Shown piece after piece: positions 2,846 to 60,838 of a stretch of DNA of 64,000 nt (positions are counted from its first letter, which is position 1; every line of letters starts with the position of its first letter). The notes beneath the pieces were generated by a model that saw only the letters and a list, made by a program, of their open reading frames with translations, was not told where the DNA came from and did no database searches. Source of the stretch: Halarcobacter sp. (lineage in GTDB: Bacteria; Campylobacterota; Campylobacteria; Campylobacterales; Arcobacteraceae); NCBI RefSeq assembly GCF_963675975.1, contig NZ_OY780939.1, positions 1,116,001 to 1,180,000 of the forward strand, written 5' to 3'. The position numbers and the translations under genes were made by a program.

Positions 2846-5183
2846 AACTAAACTATTAGTTTTCCCTACTTCTAGGGCCATAAGAGAATATGTAAACTCT
2901 CAAAAAGAGGAAAATATTCTCTTACCTTCAATAATTACAATTGATGAACTTTTTAAAAAATCTTTACTTTTTGAAAATAAAAAATATTTAGATGAAGATG
3001 AAAGATTTTTATATTTAAAAGAAGCTGTAAAAGATGTAAATCTTGAAGCTTTAGGCATATCATCCAGTTTTTCTTATTTTATAAAACAAAGTGACTATAT
3101 ATATAGATTTTTCCTAGAATTGGCAAGTGAAAGTGTTGATATAAATACTTTAAATAGTATTGATACATACGGATTTTACAGTGAACATTTAGAGATATTA
3201 AAACAGATCCAAATAAATTTTTTAAATATCTTAGATAGGGAAAACTTTGTTGATAGAATAAATTTTCATAAATATTACAAAATAAATAGTGAATTTATAA
3301 ATAGATATGACGAAATTGAATTATATTTCGAAGGATATTTTACTAAATTTGAATTTGAGATAGTAAAAGACATATCTAAAAATACTAATTTAATTATCGA
3401 ATTTATATATAATGAATATAACCAAAAGTCAATTGAAAAATTTATTGAAATAGGCTTTGATCTAGAGATTAATAATAAGTATAAAATAGATTTTTCTAAT
3501 AAAAATATACTGTATAAAAACATAATTGAATCAAAAACTGATAATTTAGTACTTAAAGGATTTAGTTCTAGAATTAATCAAATAGCTTTTATAAAAAAAT
3601 CTATAGTTGATTTAGTAAATAATGGTATTGATTCATCAAAAATAGCATTGATATTGCCAGATGAATCTTTTACCAGTTCAATATCTCTTTTTGATAGTGA
3701 AAAATATTTTAATTACGCTATGGGGTTAAATATTTACACTACTAATATGTATAGGATTGCAGATGCTATATATAATTATTTAAATGAAGATGAGTTAAAA
3801 AATATAAAAAATCTAGAGTTTTTAGAGTGTGATAAACTTTTTATAGATAAGCTTTTTAAATCTAATTGGAATAACAATATTACTGTAAAAATTTTTGAAG
3901 ATATTATTGAATTTTTATTATCAAAAGAGAGTAATAAAGAATTAATAGAAAAGTTTAATGAGTTAGTATATAAGTTATATAAAATAATATTCTCATATGG
4001 AGATAAAATCACTTTAAAAGAAGCATATAAGCTTATATATCAACGTTTATGTAAAATAAGCCTAGATGATATTAATTCAGGAAAAATAACCGTTATGGGG
4101 CTATTAGAAAGCCGTATGATTAGTTTTGATGCTATTATAATATGTGATTTTAATGAGAGTTTAATTCCTAAAAGAAGTTTGAAGGATAAATTCTTATCAA
4201 CAAATTTAAAAAGAAAAGCAAATTTGCCCACCGCTACAGATAGAGAAAATTTACAAAAATACTATTACCAAAAATTAATATCAAATACAAATAATGTTTA
4301 TATCTCTTATTTAAAAAATGATAATGACCAAATTTCAAGATTTGCCAATTTAATATTTCCTGAAAAAATAGAAGATATTTTATATGATAATAACTATAAA
4401 CACATATTATACAATAATATGAAAATAGAGCATTTTAATGAAAATATTGAAGTTGATATAGATCTATCTTCATTAACTTGGAGTGCAAGTTCTTTAAAGG
4501 AGTTTTTAGAGTGTAAAAGAAAATTTTATTTAAATCATATTCTTAAAATTAAAGAGCATGATATCTCTTTAAAACCTAAAGGGTATGAGTTGGGTAATAT
4601 AGTTCATAACACATTAGAGGAGTATTATAAGCAAAATAATCATACCTATGATGTATTGATTGACATATTCAATAAAAACAGAAGTGATAATAGTTTTTTA
4701 AATCTTGATCTTGAGATATGGAAAAAGAGATTAATAGATTTTGTAGAAAAAGAGAAAAAAAGACTTGATACTGGTATAAATATTGTTTCATTGGAAGAAA
4801 GTTTTTTATTAGAATATAATGGGATTAAGCTTAGGGGAACTATTGATAGAATAGATAAATACAACGATACATATCTTGTTATAGATTATAAAACAAGTAG
4901 TAATTTAAAAGTTGATTCTAAAAGGGGATATGAGAAGGCTACAGACTTTCAGTTGGAGTTTTATTATATTGCTGTAAACAAGCTTTATAAAACAGATAAA
5001 ATAAAAACATTTTATTATGATTTGTATGAGATGCAGTTAAAAGATGAGATTGTATTAGATGAAAAATTAGAACTATTGACTAATGTTTTTTCAAATTTTA
5101 AAACAGAAAATGTAAATTTCGATAAGTGTGAAAATCTTCAAACATGTCAGTATTGCATCTACAAAACAACGTGCAATAGATAA
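2835..5183 (+). CDS. addB: AddB-like PD-(D/E)XK nuclease/helicase subunit
   Basis: A 782-residue protein. The N-terminal half has the LVFPTSRAIREY start and degenerate helicase blocks seen in AddB. The C-terminal nuclease domain carries GTIDRID and VIDYKTSS, the catalytic D and D-x-K elements. Cys560 plus Cys765, 771, 774 and 780 form the Fe-S cluster set that staples AddB nuclease domains. With AddA it would process double-strand breaks for RecA-dependent repair. It starts inside the end of fixH, so it is translationally coupled to the cbb3 cluster. Its partner addA is not adjacent but at 48422-51160. Confidence 0.9.
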   Translation: MQSRTKLLVFPTSRAIREYVNSQKEENILLPSIITIDELFKKSLLFENKKYLDEDERFLYLKEAVKDVNLEALGISSSFSYFIKQSDYIYRFFLELASESVDINTLNSIDTYGFYSEHLEILKQIQINFLNILDRENFVDRINFHKYYKINSEFINRYDEIELYFEGYFTKFEFEIVKDISKNTNLIIEFIYNEYNQKSIEKFIEIGFDLEINNKYKIDFSNKNILYKNIIESKTDNLVLKGFSSRINQIAFIKKSIVDLVNNGIDSSKIALILPDESFTSSISLFDSEKYFNYAMGLNIYTTNMYRIADAIYNYLNEDELKNIKNLEFLECDKLFIDKLFKSNWNNNITVKIFEDIIEFLLSKESNKELIEKFNELVYKLYKIIFSYGDKITLKEAYKLIYQRLCKISLDDINSGKITVMGLLESRMISFDAIIICDFNESLIPKRSLKDKFLSTNLKRKANLPTATDRENLQKYYYQKLISNTNNVYISYLKNDNDQISRFANLIFPEKIEDILYDNNYKHILYNNMKIEHFNENIEVDIDLSSLTWSASSLKEFLECKRKFYLNHILKIKEHDISLKPKGYELGNIVHNTLEEYYKQNNHTYDVLIDIFNKNRSDNSFLNLDLEIWKKRLIDFVEKEKKRLDTGINIVSLEESFLLEYNGIKLRGTIDRIDKYNDTYLVIDYKTSSNLKVDSKRGYEKATDFQLEFYYIAVNKLYKTDKIKTFYYDLYEMQLKDEIVLDEKLELLTNVFSNFKTENVNFDKCENLQTCQYCIYKTTCNR

Positions 5184-55655: not shown

Positions 55656-56905
55656 CTTATAAAGAAAAGTTTGAGGAATCTCTTCCTAAAACAAACTTCA
55701 AAAACCTTAGTTTTGAAAATCAAGAGTTTATTACAAAAATTGCATTTCTTTATGAGTTTTCTTTCCAAGAATTAAAACAGATAATAGACTTCGCAATTGA
55801 TTTTAATATGTGGCATGAACCTGATATCTCTAAGCTTTTTAACGAAGAGTATGCAAATAGAAAAAATGCTTTTAACGATATAAGAAAAAAGTGGGAAAAT
55901 TTTAGGTCAAAACCAAACTCATATAAAAACTTTTCAAAAGATTTGTATAAAGATGATGTAAGAAAGTTTTCATTTACTAAATTTGAAGGTGAAAAAACTG
56001 CTTTAGGTTCTTGCCCTGTTGCAAGTGCTAACACTAGATGTTGTAATTTACTTACATTAGATGCAGTTCAATCTTGTGGTTTTGATTGTTCATATTGTTC
56101 TATTCAATCTTTTTACAATCAAGATAAAATAGGTTTTGATGTAAACTTTAAAAAGAATCTTGAAAATCTAAAATTAGACCCAAATCAAACTTATCATATA
56201 GGAACAGGGCAAAGTTCAGATTCACTTATGTGGGGAAATAAAGAGGGGATTTTAGATGCCTTATTTGAGTTTGCAAGAAAAAATCCAAATGTAATACTTG
56301 AATTTAAAACAAAATCAAACAACATAAAATACTTTTTAGAAAATGAAGTTCCTAAAAACATAATTTGTACTTGGTCTTTAAATACACAAACTATAATTGA
56401 CAATGAAGAACATCTAGCAGCAAGTTTAAACCAAAGAATCGAAGCAGCAAAAAAAGTAAGCGATAAAGGTGTTTTAGTAGGTTTTCACTTTCACCCAATA
56501 GTTCACTATGAAAACTATTTAGAAGAGTATGAAGAGGTTTATAAAACTCTTATTGATACTTTTGATTCAAAAAAAGTAGCCTTGGTTTCACTTGGAACTT
56601 TAACCTTTATAAAACCAGTTATAAACAAAATAAGAAGTAGAAAGTTTAAATCAAAAATCCTACAAATGCCACTAACAGATGCAAATGGAAAACAGTCTTA
56701 TCCATTAGAAATAAAAAGAGAGATGTTCAAACATGCATATGACACTTTCAAACCTTGGCATCAAGATGTATATTTTTATATGTGTATGGAAGATGAATCT
56801 TTATGGAAAGATGTATTTGGTTATGAATACTCAAGCAATAATCAAATGGAAGAGTTTATGAAGATGAGTTATATGGGGAAGATATACAAAAATAATACTT
56901 TGTAG
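55652..56905 (+). CDS. Radical SAM protein, spore photoproduct lyase (SPL) family
   Basis: 417 residues. The 4Fe-4S/SAM motif is CGFDCSYC (Cys142, 146 and 149) within a sequence like spore photoproduct lyase; GTGQSSDSLMWGN and VLVGFHFHPIVHYENY are typical of the SPL-like branch. The organism does not sporulate, so the substrate is unknown, perhaps DNA or a nucleoside lesion. The start overlaps the nucleosidase-like gene by four bases. The last 27 codons carry the left copy of a direct repeat; its other copy is at 59497. Confidence 0.85.
   Translation: MTYKEKFEESLPKTNFKNLSFENQEFITKIAFLYEFSFQELKQIIDFAIDFNMWHEPDISKLFNEEYANRKNAFNDIRKKWENFRSKPNSYKNFSKDLYKDDVRKFSFTKFEGEKTALGSCPVASANTRCCNLLTLDAVQSCGFDCSYCSIQSFYNQDKIGFDVNFKKNLENLKLDPNQTYHIGTGQSSDSLMWGNKEGILDALFEFARKNPNVILEFKTKSNNIKYFLENEVPKNIICTWSLNTQTIIDNEEHLAASLNQRIEAAKKVSDKGVLVGFHFHPIVHYENYLEEYEEVYKTLIDTFDSKKVALVSLGTLTFIKPVINKIRSRKFKSKILQMPLTDANGKQSYPLEIKREMFKHAYDTFKPWHQDVYFYMCMEDESLWKDVFGYEYSSNNQMEEFMKMSYMGKIYKNNTL
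56825..56876 (+). repeat. Left copy of a 52-bp direct repeat (end of SPL gene)
   Basis: This 52-base segment encodes EYSSNNQMEEFMKMSYM near the end of the SPL protein and matches 59497-59548 at 50 of 52 positions; the two differences (C/T at 56830, T/C at 56869) are silent in the shared frame. Beyond it the copies diverge but keep a similar lysine/asparagine tail and stop. It is the left boundary of the accessory region 56906-59496 and may be an attachment-type site. Confidence 0.85.
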
Positions 56906-57020
56906 ATATTCTTTATATTTTATTGAAAAGTCTTTAGTATAAAAGAATATTAAAATAAAGTGTTTAATAAATTAACTATAATTAACAAAAATTCTAATTA
57001 TATTAAGATAAAATAATCTT

Positions 57021-57195
57021 ATGACATATAAATACGATTATGATAAAACTCTATACAGACTTATAATAATTTTAAAAAAATTAAATGATGGTGGAAAATT
57101 ATCTGTTGAAAATTTGGCGGAAAAATTTAATGTATCTATATAGTACTATTCAAAGGGATTTAAGTGGAAGCTTTAATATGTCAAGAAAGTCGTAA
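57021..57195 (+). pseudogene. Frameshifted N-terminal remnant of an HTH (WYL-type) regulator
   Basis: From ATG 57021 the frame reads TYKYDYDKTLYRLIIILKKL then an HTH start (GGKLSVENLAEKFNVSI) and stops at TAG 57141-57143. Skipping one base there restores the recognition helix STIQRDLSGSFNMSRKS up to TAA 57193-57195. A V-S-x-x-T-I-Q-R-D-L helix after a winged-helix start is typical of WYL-domain regulators of the YafY type. So this is a regulator broken by a one-base insertion and cut short before its WYL domain. Such regulators often precede defence genes. Confidence 0.8.
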
Positions 57196-57229
57196 ATGAG
57201 AATAAATTAAAATTTATGGATAATAACAC

Positions 57230-57826
57230 ATGAAAATACTACATACAACAGATTTACACTTTAATAAAAATTGGTTTGAATGGTTAATTAAACAACAAAA
57301 CAATTATGATGTATTTTGTATCACTGGTGATTTTTTGGAAGATTCAAAAAATGAAACACTCTTAGAACAGATAGAGTGGATAACAAATTGGATGAAAAAA
57401 TTTAAGAAACCTTTGTTTATTTGCAGTGGTAATCATGATATAGAAGAGTTGGAAAATGAAGATTGGTTTAGTAAAATTTCAAATGTGTATAGCGATAATA
57501 CAATAAAAATAATTGATGGCATAAAATTTGGATGTATTCCTTATATAGCACCAGAATTTTATGAATATGATGAATGTGACGTGATTTTATACCATTTACC
57601 ACCCTCTTATACAAAAACAGCAATACACAATAAAACGAATGAAGATTGGGGAGATAATGAGTTTTATAGAAATATAAAAAATGGTGTACTATCACCAAAA
57701 GTTATACTTTGTGGTCATATGCATCATCCAATAGATATTATTGATAAAATAAATAATACTATGATTTATAATACAGGTGTTGACAAGAAAAAAGATATTC
57801 CAAACCATTTTTGTATTGAAATTTGA
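57230..57826 (+). CDS. Calcineurin-like metallophosphoesterase
   Basis: 198 residues with all five motifs of the family: TDLHF (Asp8, His10), TGDF (about 32-35), SGNHDIE (about 64-70), the single His of YHLPP and CGHMHHP (about 162-168). This gives a two-metal site for phosphodiester or phosphomonoester cleavage. No extra domain is present. Relatives include small nucleases and nucleotide phosphodiesterases; the substrate cannot be deduced. It has no strong ribosome binding site. It lies just after the broken regulator and about 220 bases before a nuclease gene. Confidence 0.9.
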   Translation: MKILHTTDLHFNKNWFEWLIKQQNNYDVFCITGDFLEDSKNETLLEQIEWITNWMKKFKKPLFICSGNHDIEELENEDWFSKISNVYSDNTIKIIDGIKFGCIPYIAPEFYEYDECDVILYHLPPSYTKTAIHNKTNEDWGDNEFYRNIKNGVLSPKVILCGHMHHPIDIIDKINNTMIYNTGVDKKKDIPNHFCIEI

Positions 57827-57854
57827 TACAAAATGAAATGAATTAATTGAATTA

Positions 57855-58037
57855 TTGAAAAATTTATCTAATTTTGTTTATAAAAATTTGTTGAATCTGT
57901 ATAGGTTAAAAATAGTATGTAAGTGTAAAAATGGGAAAATCTATCAATCTACATACTTTAACGGTGCTACATATAAAATAAATGTTGCTGAGTGTGAAAG
58001 AACTATTGGAAGCAACTATTTTGAGAGAATAATCTAG
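57855..58037 (+). CDS. Small hypothetical protein
   Basis: A 60-residue frame starting with TTG at 57855, 29 bases after the phosphoesterase stop and ending 10 bases before the nuclease start. It has a basic N-terminal half and a C-terminal KIYQSTYFNGATYKINVAECERTI stretch with two cysteines at 22 and 24 (VCKCKNG). No family was recognised. Reasons for calling it a gene: it fills the gap between two genes and has neighbour-like base use. The start and even coding status are uncertain; it may be a remnant. Confidence 0.45.
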   Translation: MKNLSNFVYKNLLNLYRLKIVCKCKNGKIYQSTYFNGATYKINVAECERTIGSNYFERII

Positions 58038-58047
58038 GGAGCAAATA

Positions 58048-59202
58048 ATGAGTAATGATAAAAATGAATATGAACAGTTAGAAGAATTTATTTTTAACGA
58101 TGAAGTACAAAATACATTATCTGAAATAAGTGATAATGTAATGGATTTTAATATACTTGAAATTACAGGTATGGGTACACAAGAAGTTAAACATTCTAAT
58201 ATTTTAGGTTGGTTATTTGATGATAGTGAACATAATTTAGAATATCTAATTTTAGAAGATTTTTTGAAAAAAGTAGTCGATGAAAATAATAATAAAAAAA
58301 TTGAGTCACTAAAACATTATTTGTATCTACCAAAAAATAAAAATAGAGATATTACAGTTTTTAGAGAAAAAGATTATATTGATTTACTTATTGTCGATGA
58401 AGCAAATAAATTTGTTATAACGATAGAAAATAAATTATATGCAAGTGAAAGAGTTGAAGATGGCGGTGGTGGGCAGCTTAATGACTATGAAAGAATAATA
58501 AATGAAAAATATTCAGATGAATACACTAAGTATTTCATTTTCTTAACTATTAATCTTGAAGAACCTACTAGAAACAACTGGTTAAAAGCAAGTCATACGA
58601 TGGTTGCAAATACAATTGAAAACATTTTAAAATCAAAAGATATTTCTGTAAAAACTAAAATATTGTTAGAAAGCTATATAGATTTAATGAAAAGGAGAGG
58701 TATTGTGGAAGATAAAAAACTAGAAGAATTATGTGAAAAAATTTGGTTGAATAAAGATTATGCTGAAGCTTTAAATATTTTAATTCAACATAAAACAACT
58801 ATCACAAAAAAATTTTATGAAGATAAACTTGATGATGAATTTGATTTTAAGGATGATTCGGTTTTTATAAAATTAGAAAGTACAGATAAAATATATGAAA
58901 TATTAGACTTAAATTGGGATGACATAGAAGAAACAATATTTGATATTTCTTGTGAATATGAAAATGAAGATATAGTTTTATATTTTTCACATCGTGCATT
59001 ATATAATGAAGATATGAATGAAGATATACAAAATATTTGTAATAAAATCAAAAATAAGAAATCTAAAAAATATGAAGAAATAAAAAGGTACACAATTGAT
59101 GATTTTGTTAATAAAGGGGAAAAATTTGTCATTGATGACATGAAAGAAACTATTAATAGAATTGATACAACATTATTATCTATGTTAAATAAGCTAAATT
59201 AA
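58048..59202 (+). CDS. PD-(D/E)XK nuclease superfamily protein
   Basis: 384 residues behind AGGGAG. The N-terminal third matches PDDEXK_4-type proteins: Glu46 in QEVKHSNILGWLF, Asp112 in DYIDLLIVDE and Glu127-Asn-Lys129 in VITIENKLYA, followed by Gln143 and Tyr147 (QLNDY). This is a complete D-x(n)-E-x-K core. The C-terminal 200 residues are helical and acidic with no known domain. Such stand-alone nucleases occur in defence and mobile regions, but their targets are mostly unknown. No methyltransferase partner is nearby, so it is not an ordinary restriction enzyme. Confidence 0.85.
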   Translation: MSNDKNEYEQLEEFIFNDEVQNTLSEISDNVMDFNILEITGMGTQEVKHSNILGWLFDDSEHNLEYLILEDFLKKVVDENNNKKIESLKHYLYLPKNKNRDITVFREKDYIDLLIVDEANKFVITIENKLYASERVEDGGGGQLNDYERIINEKYSDEYTKYFIFLTINLEEPTRNNWLKASHTMVANTIENILKSKDISVKTKILLESYIDLMKRRGIVEDKKLEELCEKIWLNKDYAEALNILIQHKTTITKKFYEDKLDDEFDFKDDSVFIKLESTDKIYEILDLNWDDIEETIFDISCEYENEDIVLYFSHRALYNEDMNEDIQNICNKIKNKKSKKYEEIKRYTIDDFVNKGEKFVIDDMKETINRIDTTLLSMLNKLN

Positions 59203-59206
59203 TATC

Positions 59207-59380
59207 ATGAGTATCCCAAATCAAGAAACAATATTTGGAACAATAGATTTTCAAGGAAAAACTTACAGTTTATTATCTCAGTCATTAAGTGATGAACAAT
59301 TTGAGCAGATAAATTAATACAAAAAAGAGAATAACTGTGGTAGTTCATCAGCTCCTTGGAGTGTAAATAGACTTAATTAA
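59207..59380 (+). pseudogene. Decayed or split small ORF
   Basis: From ATG 59207, four bases after the nuclease stop, 36 codons end at TAA 59315-59317. The same frame then continues for 20 codons (YKKENNCGSSSAPWSVNRLN) to TAA 59378-59380. Read through, it would be a 57-residue protein with FGTIDFQGKTYSLLSQSLSD at the front. The internal stop suggests decay, but a 36-residue gene is also possible. No family recognised. The rest of 59381-59496 holds only a short imperfect hairpin (59396-59418). Confidence 0.4.
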
Positions 59381-59496
59381 AAAAATTTTGTACCATTTTA
59401 AACCACTTCGTAGTGATTAAAAGTGTATAAAAAGAGGTATAGTTTTGTAGATTATTTAATCTATCCCTTATTACATAGGCTATAGAGAGTCAGTTA

Positions 59497-59571
59497 GAAT
59501 ATTCAAGCAATAATCAAATGGAAGAGTTTATGAAGATGAGCTATATGGATAAAATACTTCTTAATAAATAA
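59497..59571 (+). pseudogene. Orphan C-terminal fragment of the SPL-family gene (right repeat copy)
   Basis: Twenty-four codons (EYSSNNQMEEFMKMSYMDKI then LLNK) ending at TAA 59569-59571; 50 of 52 bases match 56825-56876. The upstream frame is closed by a stop at 59476-59478, so it is not part of a longer gene. It looks like the original end of the SPL gene displaced by the accessory segment, or the residue of a second copy. The 166 bases to the next gene at 59738 hold no gene. Confidence 0.8.
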
Positions 59572-59737
59572 CTAATAGATTCTAATTTATTATTAAACTT
59601 TACTATGCATAAAAACTATACATAATTACCGCTAGAAAAGATATTTAAATGTTATACTTGATTAGAGCTTATTTTTATCTTTTTTGACTTAATACCTTGA
59701 CTAATATTTTCTGTAGCTCAGTTTAAAGGAGCTAATT

Positions 59738-60838
59738 ATGAATTCACATGCTGTTAAAGAAGCTTTTGAAAAAGCTATGCAACTTCAAAAATCTGGATCA
59801 ACTACACAAGCAATAACAATTTATGAAGATATTTTGTTTGAGGATAAAACTAATTTTGAAGCAAATTTTGAAATTGGTAATTGTCATAAAACTAATAAAA
59901 ACTACAATAAGGCGCTTTTTTATTTAAAAGAAGCTAGTAAGGCTAATACTGAGTGTTATACTTGCCATTTTAATATGGCACAAATCTATGATAAACTTTG
60001 TAAATATGAGTTTTCACTTTTTCATTTGGAAAAGGTTATGAAAGTTTGTCCTGAGTTTTATGAAGCTCTTTTTTCTATAGCTCAATGTTATAGAAAAATG
60101 AAAAATGAAGGAAAAATGTATGAGTATCTAAAAAGAACTCTTGCAAAACTACCAGAACATCCAGGAGCAAACCATCTTTTAGCATCTTTAAATGAAGAGA
60201 CTAGCAGTGAATACTCATCTTTGTATGCAAGAGACCTTTTTGATAGATATGCTGGACATTTTGAGGAACATCTTGTTAGTTCTCTAAAGTATCAAGTTCC
60301 TTTTATCATAAAAGAAAAATTATTCTCATTAAACTCTTCAAAAGATTCTAAAATATTAGATTTAGGTTGTGGTACGGGGTTATTAGGTAAAACTATTGTT
60401 GAATCTTTTCCAAACTTAGTTGGTGTTGATATATCTTCAAATATGATAGATGAAACAAGAAAAAAAGATATATATTCTGAACTTCATACAAATGATATTC
60501 ATAAATTTCTTTTAGAAAGTGTTAAAGAATACGATTTAATCATAGCTGCTGATGTATTTATATATATTGGGGCTTTAAAAACTATTTTCTCGAGCATTAA
60601 AAAAACTATAAATAGTGATAGCCATTTTATCTTCACAATAGAGCTTTTAGATGAACTTGAAAAGGAAAGTTTCCAATTGGGAAAAAGTGGAAGGTTTTCT
60701 CATACTATAAAATATATAGAATCATTGTGCAAAGATTTTGGTTTTGAGCTTATAGATAAAGAAGAGATTATCTTAAGAGAAGAGAATAAAATAGGGCAGA
60801 AGGGTGCTATTTTTATCTTAAAAACTTGTGATATTTAA
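59738..60838 (+). CDS. TPR-domain SAM-dependent methyltransferase
   Basis: 366 residues. Residues about 1-150 are four to five tetratricopeptide repeats (for example QAITIYEDILFEDKTNFEANF, KALFYLKEASKA, EFSLFHLEKVMKVCPEFYEALF). Then a class I methyltransferase domain (about 165-366) with SAM motif ILDLGCGTGLLG (about 206-217) and LIIAADVFIYIG. The TPR part probably binds a protein or peptide partner; the substrate is unknown. It has a good AAAGGAG ribosome binding site and is the first intact gene after the island's right boundary. Confidence 0.87.
   Translation: MNSHAVKEAFEKAMQLQKSGSTTQAITIYEDILFEDKTNFEANFEIGNCHKTNKNYNKALFYLKEASKANTECYTCHFNMAQIYDKLCKYEFSLFHLEKVMKVCPEFYEALFSIAQCYRKMKNEGKMYEYLKRTLAKLPEHPGANHLLASLNEETSSEYSSLYARDLFDRYAGHFEEHLVSSLKYQVPFIIKEKLFSLNSSKDSKILDLGCGTGLLGKTIVESFPNLVGVDISSNMIDETRKKDIYSELHTNDIHKFLLESVKEYDLIIAADVFIYIGALKTIFSSIKKTINSDSHFIFTIELLDELEKESFQLGKSGRFSHTIKYIESLCKDFGFELIDKEEIILREENKIGQKGAIFILKTCDI

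Follow-up and report, generated by a model that had tools for sequence, protein, structure and literature searches.

The definition of a cis-mobilizable element (CIME) is said to go back to Pavlovic and colleagues in 2004. It is given in PMC5704250, which also describes how tyrosine-integrase integrative and mobilizable elements (IMEs) insert at the 3′ ends of protein genes, for example SGI1 at thdF. Here, we analyze a 2.6-kb cassette in a 64-kb stretch of a Halarcobacter genome (contig NZ_OY780939.1, positions 1,116,001 to 1,180,000; hereafter the window), which lies between two copies of the 3′ end of a gene resembling spore photoproduct lyase (SPL). With a probability of roughly 0.8, this cassette would be a CIME, that is, a decayed integrative element that has kept both attachment sites (attL and attR) and is integrated at the SPL 3′ end. 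As in the CIMEs of PMC5704250, the window cassette is flanked by attL and attR, contains no recognized genes for integration or transfer, and restores the end of its target gene. It differs from them in that accretion with an intact element is not seen at the locus, in its SPL-like target in Arcobacteraceae, and in that its mobilization is putative. With the IMEs it shares the restored gene end, repeats of tens of bases and, in the relative G081 (G-numbers denote the other genomes compared, G000 being the genome of the window), an integrase module at one end; the differences are the missing integrase of the window element and, again, the SPL-like target.

A target gene that resembles SPL has an independent precedent in the Streptomyces phage Samy, whose attB is located in a radical-SAM gene weakly similar to SplB according to PMC12924846. 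The same source assigns to Samy a serine integrase and an inactivation of the target gene in the native host, in which it differs from the locus described here. Most likely the cassette is an eroded remnant of an element of a known kind, at a landing site that is newly noticed; the literature, most subscription papers and bioRxiv preprints being outside the search, contained no report of an SPL-end site in Arcobacteraceae. The locus points, for this family, to a site of integration, to a clade of integrases and to a probable end motif, and its occupied and empty examples come from three genera. Islands at the SPL locus could thereby be called even when the integrase is gone, and the excision in trans of a cassette without integrase becomes simply testable.

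Repeats and native gene end

A preliminary description of the window, made from its sequence alone, had reported a 52-base repeat with 50 matches and silent differences. The same identities were recovered between 56825–56876 and 59497–59548, the two silent mismatches being C/T at position 6 and T/C at position 45, and a repeat search lengthens the pair to 60 nt at 92%. The left copy forms the 3′ end of an open reading frame (ORF) of 417 aa that is intact, while the right copy reads in frame as EYSSNNQMEEFMKMSYMDKILLNK followed by a stop, i.e., 24 codons with a stop of their own and no gene body before them. The NCBIfam model for spore photoproduct lyase matches the window gene with E 5e-20, far below the model cut-off. 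Therefore, the label SPL is loose, and “SPL-like radical-SAM gene” is the safer name. The G+C content of the cassette is 23.8%, compared to 28.6% for the whole window.

Which of the two ends is native can be judged from G068, whose SPL is the most similar in the family (96%). The SPL of G068 terminates in SYMDKILLNR and the right copy of the window in SYMDKILLNK, and 68 of the 75 bases up to and including the stop are shared. The left copy equals G068 to the middle of the repeat core and then diverges, terminating in SYMGKIYKNNTL and a stop. Beyond the right copy, 128 of 147 aligned positions up to the TPR-methyltransferase gene (a label taken from the preliminary description) are the same as in G068, and the product of this gene is 86% identical to its G068 counterpart. 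It thus appears that the native SPL end was moved beyond the insert and that the gene body acquired a new end; an integration that restores the gene would be expected to have this polarity. The preliminary description had named as the empty site a genome in which an intact SPL gene with the right-hand ending runs straight into the TPR-methyltransferase gene. G068 does contain an intact SPL gene with such an ending, but a LysE-like gene is located between it and the TPR-methyltransferase gene; cleaner empty sites were found for the two other occupied genomes, G081 and G032 (see below). The names LysE, ABC, DedA, and recO are our own readings and not derived from family searches.

Occupied and empty sites in other genomes

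An SPL match was obtained in 40 of the 104 Arcobacteraceae genomes. The loci of 37 of them were examined, comprising the downstream regions of 36 genomes and the window for G000, with G049, G071, and G073 left out. Outside the family, a C-terminal match was obtained in 108 genomes of the order, 43 of which were examined, there being 11 further named loci, one of which has 12 nt downstream. Downstream lengths ranged from approximately 1.3 to 17 kb, so that longer islands would be missed, and were below 6 kb at nine loci (G041, G046, G077, and G103 in the family; G142, G331, G344, G433, and G438 outside). Each region was searched for a recurrence of its own SPL 3′ end and then with a 3′-end profile. 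A clear second SPL end was detected in G000 (E 3e-12), G081 (2e-12), and G032 (1e-4), the next match having E 2.4, and the self-repeat scans otherwise yielded only weak short matches (E 0.001 or worse). Within the lengths examined, occupied sites hence amount to three of 37 family loci vs. none of 43 in other families, and in all three the gene end is restored and the native end displaced. The core motif (at most three mismatches) occurs in 10 of the 104 genomes and twice only in G000 and G081, with no decoy match among those listed; the SPL-end motif had no match in viral contigs.

The occupied site of G081, which belongs to a different genus than the window, consists of a 67-bp repeat (66 identical) around 7.9 kb. 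Its repeat starts with AATATTCAAGCAATAATC and that of the window with GAATAYTCAAGCAATAATC, the left edges being at most one base apart. The element opens with a tyrosine integrase 141 nt past the SPL stop (Pfam Phage_integrase 7e-12; phrog_1 1e-32) and closes with an excisionase-like gene (phrog_66 8e-6). Between them, a replication protein was matched below the cut-off, a 479-aa protein had no match in Pfam, PHROGs, or NCBIfam, and the reading by eye of one ORF as relaxase-like found no support in these three collections. The tail of the right copy resembles the SPL ends of the sister genomes G078 and G079, and in all three genomes a LysE-like gene (96 and 95% identity) follows 11 nt past the stop. 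By this comparison the right copy is the native-like one also in G081, and G081 and its sisters form a clean pair of occupied and empty sites.

In G032, the order is SPL, a patatin gene (Pfam Patatin 2e-27), a second SPL end and an ABC-transporter gene. The second end is 81% similar over 65 positions, finishes with YLRKINKRR and a stop, and runs directly into the ABC-transporter gene. In the empty sisters G033 and G034, whose SPL genes end in KINKRR and KIDKRR, respectively, the same ABC gene follows directly (96 and 92%). An 86% identical patatin gene is located directly after SPL in G060, where it is not followed by a second SPL end, and because of this arrangement the G032 case might instead represent homologous exchange.

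Different cargo at this gene end is present in relatives (7.9 kb with an integrase in G081, a patatin gene in G032), as the preliminary description had proposed to look for, and 34 of the 37 family loci are devoid of a second SPL end, contrary to the refuting case named there, in which every relative has the cassette and none an empty site. Together with the assignment of the native end via G068 and the empty sites, this supports the earlier suggestion of an integration at a gene 3′ end.

Among the Arcobacteraceae loci (L035–L054, L086–L101, L148, and the window), a DedA-like gene is located at most 0.1 kb after SPL in G077, G086, G087, G102, and G103, and elsewhere 0.7 to approximately 17 kb of differing genes lie between the two. 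Since most of these variable SPL–DedA loci are without a second SPL end, the variation cannot all be due to this attachment site.

Integrases and element ends

No integrase or transfer gene was recognized in the cassette, either in the ORF list or when four of its ORFs, the decayed one not included, were scanned with Pfam and PHROGs. Its attachment sites are related to those of an integrative element, as the near-identical repeat and the nearly shared edge with the G081 site indicate. The host genome has ten PF00589 matches, and among the eight of these that are listed the nearest is approximately 250 kb away. Among the matches listed for 26 genomes, an integrase is found next to SPL only in G081. 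Relatives of the G081 integrase were represented in plasmids by six records, all below 60% identity, and in viral contigs by 11 pattern matches, none of which was confirmed.

The right end of the cassette carries AAAGTGTATAA, which is also present a short distance upstream of the G081 integrase and of its three closest homologues. The GTGTATAA contained in the possible right arm-type site (Table 1) occurs a single time in the window, at 59423. In the 17.5-kb G081 stretch it occurs five times, a number reached in none of 200 shuffles, and four of the five copies belong to the ends of the element (left, 2876 and 2907; right, 10554 and 10566). The right-end copies precede the right repeat of G081 by 76 and 64 nt, compared to 74 nt in the window. 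A more independent test of the end motif is provided by the integrase homologues. AAAGTGTATAA lies upstream in all four integrase loci with at least 43% identity (G081 included), starting 70 nt before the integrase match in G081, 76 nt in G051, 47 nt in G070, and approximately 80 nt in G073, and it is absent over 300–400 nt in all four loci with at most 39% identity. Three fragmentary integrase matches are outside this count, one of which (G047) has AAAGTGTATAA 62 nt before the match. As background, 1.33 Mb of partly overlapping other loci, searched on both strands, gave two matches, one in the end of an ORF (L096) and one read by eye (L104).

One of the four alignments between ends is clear. 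The left, integrase-side end of the G081 element aligns to the right end of the window cassette with a score of 40, whereas none of 500 shuffle pairs reaches this score and the largest is 32. Moreover, the ends of the two elements share 26 ten-base words, where random pieces, most of them coding, share 3.4 on average (95th percentile 12), and GTGTATAA was found in none of 16 control stretches behind SPL in other genomes. Taken together, these sequence comparisons make a good but not conclusive case that an integrase of the G081 clade acted on the window element.

Three further integrase loci deserve mention. In G051 (L154:3486-5360), a 52% relative of the G081 integrase is encoded approximately 160 nt past the stop of a recO-like gene, with three GTGTAT repeats in between; no flanking repeat was detected within 12 kb, and the locus perhaps represents the same clade at another gene 3′ end. 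A 4.4-kb contig of G073 carries an integrase and two copies of AAAGTGTATAAAAA (L155:527-540 and 3992-4005), possibly both ends of a small element. In G067 (L157:8630-18760), a tyrosine-integrase locus is bordered by duplications of 246 nt (75%) and 40 nt (92.5%), approximately 9.9 and 9.5 kb apart, in what reads as the 3′ end of a transporter gene.

Cargo genes and origin of the cassette

Table 1. Features of the cassette and its flanks (window coordinates, all on the + strand).
Feature	Position	Strand	Remarks
SPL-like radical-SAM gene, 417 aa	55652..56905	+	Last codons past the repeat core (GKIYKNNTL, then stop) read as element-derived end
Left direct repeat (attL), within SPL 3′ end	56825..56884	+	Left edge at most 1 base from the G081 repeat edge
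Possible left arm-type site AAAATAAAGTGT	56952..56963	+	Also at the end of the G081 element that bears the integrase; weak on its own
HTH/WYL regulator remnant, about 51 of 309 codons	57021..57173	+	Stop after codon 40; HTH_DeoR just below cut-off
Calcineurin-like metallophosphoesterase, 198 aa, open	57230..57826	+	Pfam Metallophos 3e-14; PADLOC PDC-S10 6e-13
60-aa ORF	57855..58037	+	Like the C-terminus of a 146-aa G009 protein (49% over 35 aa, E 5e-7)
PD-(D/E)XK nuclease-like protein, 384 aa, open	58048..59202	+	Pfam PDDEXK_4 7e-18; PADLOC PDC-S26 8e-56
Decayed ORF, 36 codons to in-frame stop	59207..59317	+	Read from sequence
Possible right arm-type site AAAGTGTATAAAAA	59420..59433	+	Its GTGTATAA begins 74 nt ahead of attR
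Right direct repeat (attR), displaced native SPL 3′ end with own stop	59497..59571	+	68/75 bases as in G068
Native right flank and TPR-methyltransferase gene	59572..60838 (gene 59738-60838)	+	Match to G068

The gene content agrees with the list in the preliminary description, with a broken HTH/WYL ORF, open genes for the phosphoesterase and the PD-(D/E)XK nuclease, and no integrase recognized between the repeats. The phosphoesterase possesses D-x-H, GD, GNHD, and GHxH, which we take to be its metal-binding motifs, and the nuclease keeps, by pattern, a D…E-N-K motif. A row of genes on one strand in G009 encodes a WYL regulator, a 173-aa protein, a 146-aa protein, and a phosphoesterase, the 146-aa protein preceding the phosphoesterase. 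The WYL protein of G009 has the Pfam domains WYL and WCX, and the regulator remnant is 55% identical to its N-terminal part (the first 51 codons); the phosphoesterase is 69% identical to that of G009. The 173-aa protein, in which a GIY-YIG motif was seen by eye and which has no match in Pfam or NCBIfam, lacks a counterpart in the window cassette. As the regulator and the small gene are truncated relative to this row, deletions would have occurred in the cassette or its ancestor, which favors the decay of a larger island; no intact parent element was found.

Among 298 genomes of the order, with at most six candidates scored in each, the nuclease was recovered at 1e-15 from one, that of the window; relatives in plasmids came from 17 records, none of them covering 80% of the query. 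Neither the nuclease nor the phosphoesterase is present at any other SPL locus examined, and the pair was not encountered elsewhere in the analysis. Both match PADLOC models (PDC-S26 and PDC-S10, respectively) that stand for candidate families only, and no paper on “PDC-S26” was found in the literature. An anti-phage or defense role of the cargo is plausible from these matches, although as a statement about function it is a guess. The defense part of the earlier proposal of a new mobile or defense cassette accordingly depends on the two candidate families. As to its mobile part, the truncated genes and the lack of an integrase make the cassette look like what is left of a larger element after decay rather than like a compact new mobile system.

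In the scenario that we favor, the SPL 3′ end would serve as the chromosomal attB for tyrosine-integrase elements in Arcobacteraceae. An incoming element with an SPL 3′ end of its own would recombine at the end of the resident SPL gene, which would keep its body and gain the tail of the element, while the native tail would move to the far side. The integrase and any transfer genes would since have been lost, leaving a 2.6-kb CIME with the order attL, truncated WYL regulator, phosphoesterase, gene fragment, PD-(D/E)XK nuclease, arm-type site, and attR. The comparisons themselves show the repeats, the native end, the empty sites, the integrase at the same site in one relative and the shared end motif. 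From these we infer that an integrase of the G081 clade made the window insertion and that the missing genes were deleted after arrival and not absent from the start.

Several observations weigh against this scenario. There is one case for each of the three occupied sites. G068 is an imperfect empty site owing to the intervening LysE-like gene, and in the repeat core the bases common to both window copies differ from G068, which integration alone does not explain and for which host variation or conversion is needed. The second SPL end of G032 is diverged, and the stretch before this remnant has no end motif. The motif itself was chosen after the ends had been viewed, GTGTATAA is not enriched across the window (one found, 3.1 expected by chance), and in G096 (L158:1312) a 37% homologue of the G081 integrase has AAAGTGTATAA as far as 5.9 kb upstream, for which we have no explanation. 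Of the remaining end alignments, left against left scores 38, which is borderline (reached by 24 of 500 shuffle pairs), and neither right against right (24; 81/500) nor G081 right against window left (31; 122/500) is significant; the post-SPL controls from the 16 other genomes score 14–31 against the left and 16–36 against the right end of G081. Finally, the host genome contains no relative of the G081 integrase (0 matches at 1e-15).

This last point bears equally on the idea that the cassette is a compact, integrase-less passenger moved in trans and not a decayed remnant. The near-identical att copies, the two open cargo genes and the small size would suit such a passenger, as would the even smaller single-gene insert of G032, but the truncation of the regulator and the small gene relative to the G009 row and the recovery of the nuclease from a single one of the 298 genomes (at most six candidates scored in each), with neither cargo gene at any other SPL locus examined, make it unlikely. 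It shares the integration step with the CIME scenario, and the likelihoods assigned to the two are not exclusive. Extended to the whole family, the SPL 3′ end would be a hotspot for tiny integrase-less cassettes of one to a few defense-like genes, delivered and exchanged in trans by the integrases of resident or passing elements, in effect a system of gene-end cassettes intermediate between CIMEs and the cassettes of integrons; we regard both of these propositions as quite doubtful.

Repeats without an integrase could also result from a Campbell-type insertion, in which circular DNA with a foreign SPL 3′ piece and the cargo enters by a RecA crossover. The repeats do lie in coding sequence with real homology, an integrase is not recognized in the cassette, and the patatin insert of G032 resembles the SPL–patatin junction of G060. 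However, homologous exchange is expected to yield random edges, whereas the repeats of the window and of G081 start at nearly the same base in different genera, and one of the three sites has an integrase, whose end motif is common to it and the window; a Campbell-type origin is thus improbable. As to the alternative named in the preliminary description, a former tandem SPL gene that was mostly deleted, it would account for the short second SPL end. It was rejected as scarcely credible, because a second SPL gene of full length is absent from all 40 family genomes in which SPL was matched (additional matches correspond to the short ends of G000 and G081 and to G073, whose SPL is split over two contigs) and because the left tail is unlike and the right tail like that of G068; in addition, nearly the same edge is found with different cargo in other genera.

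Relatives of the phosphoesterase are encoded in four other genomes of the 104 in the family (1e-12), and those in G009, G058, and G075 have other partner genes. In G058, a tyrosine integrase is encoded approximately 6.6 kb away from the phosphoesterase, and a replication-type gene at a distance of one gene. The complete row with WYL regulator, 173-aa protein, 146-aa protein, and phosphoesterase is that of G009 (L161:8100-10691), and parts of it or another partner are present in G058 (L159:9406-10509) and G075 (L160:2133-9764). These recurrent accessory neighborhoods possibly constitute an undescribed defense module with exchangeable partners.

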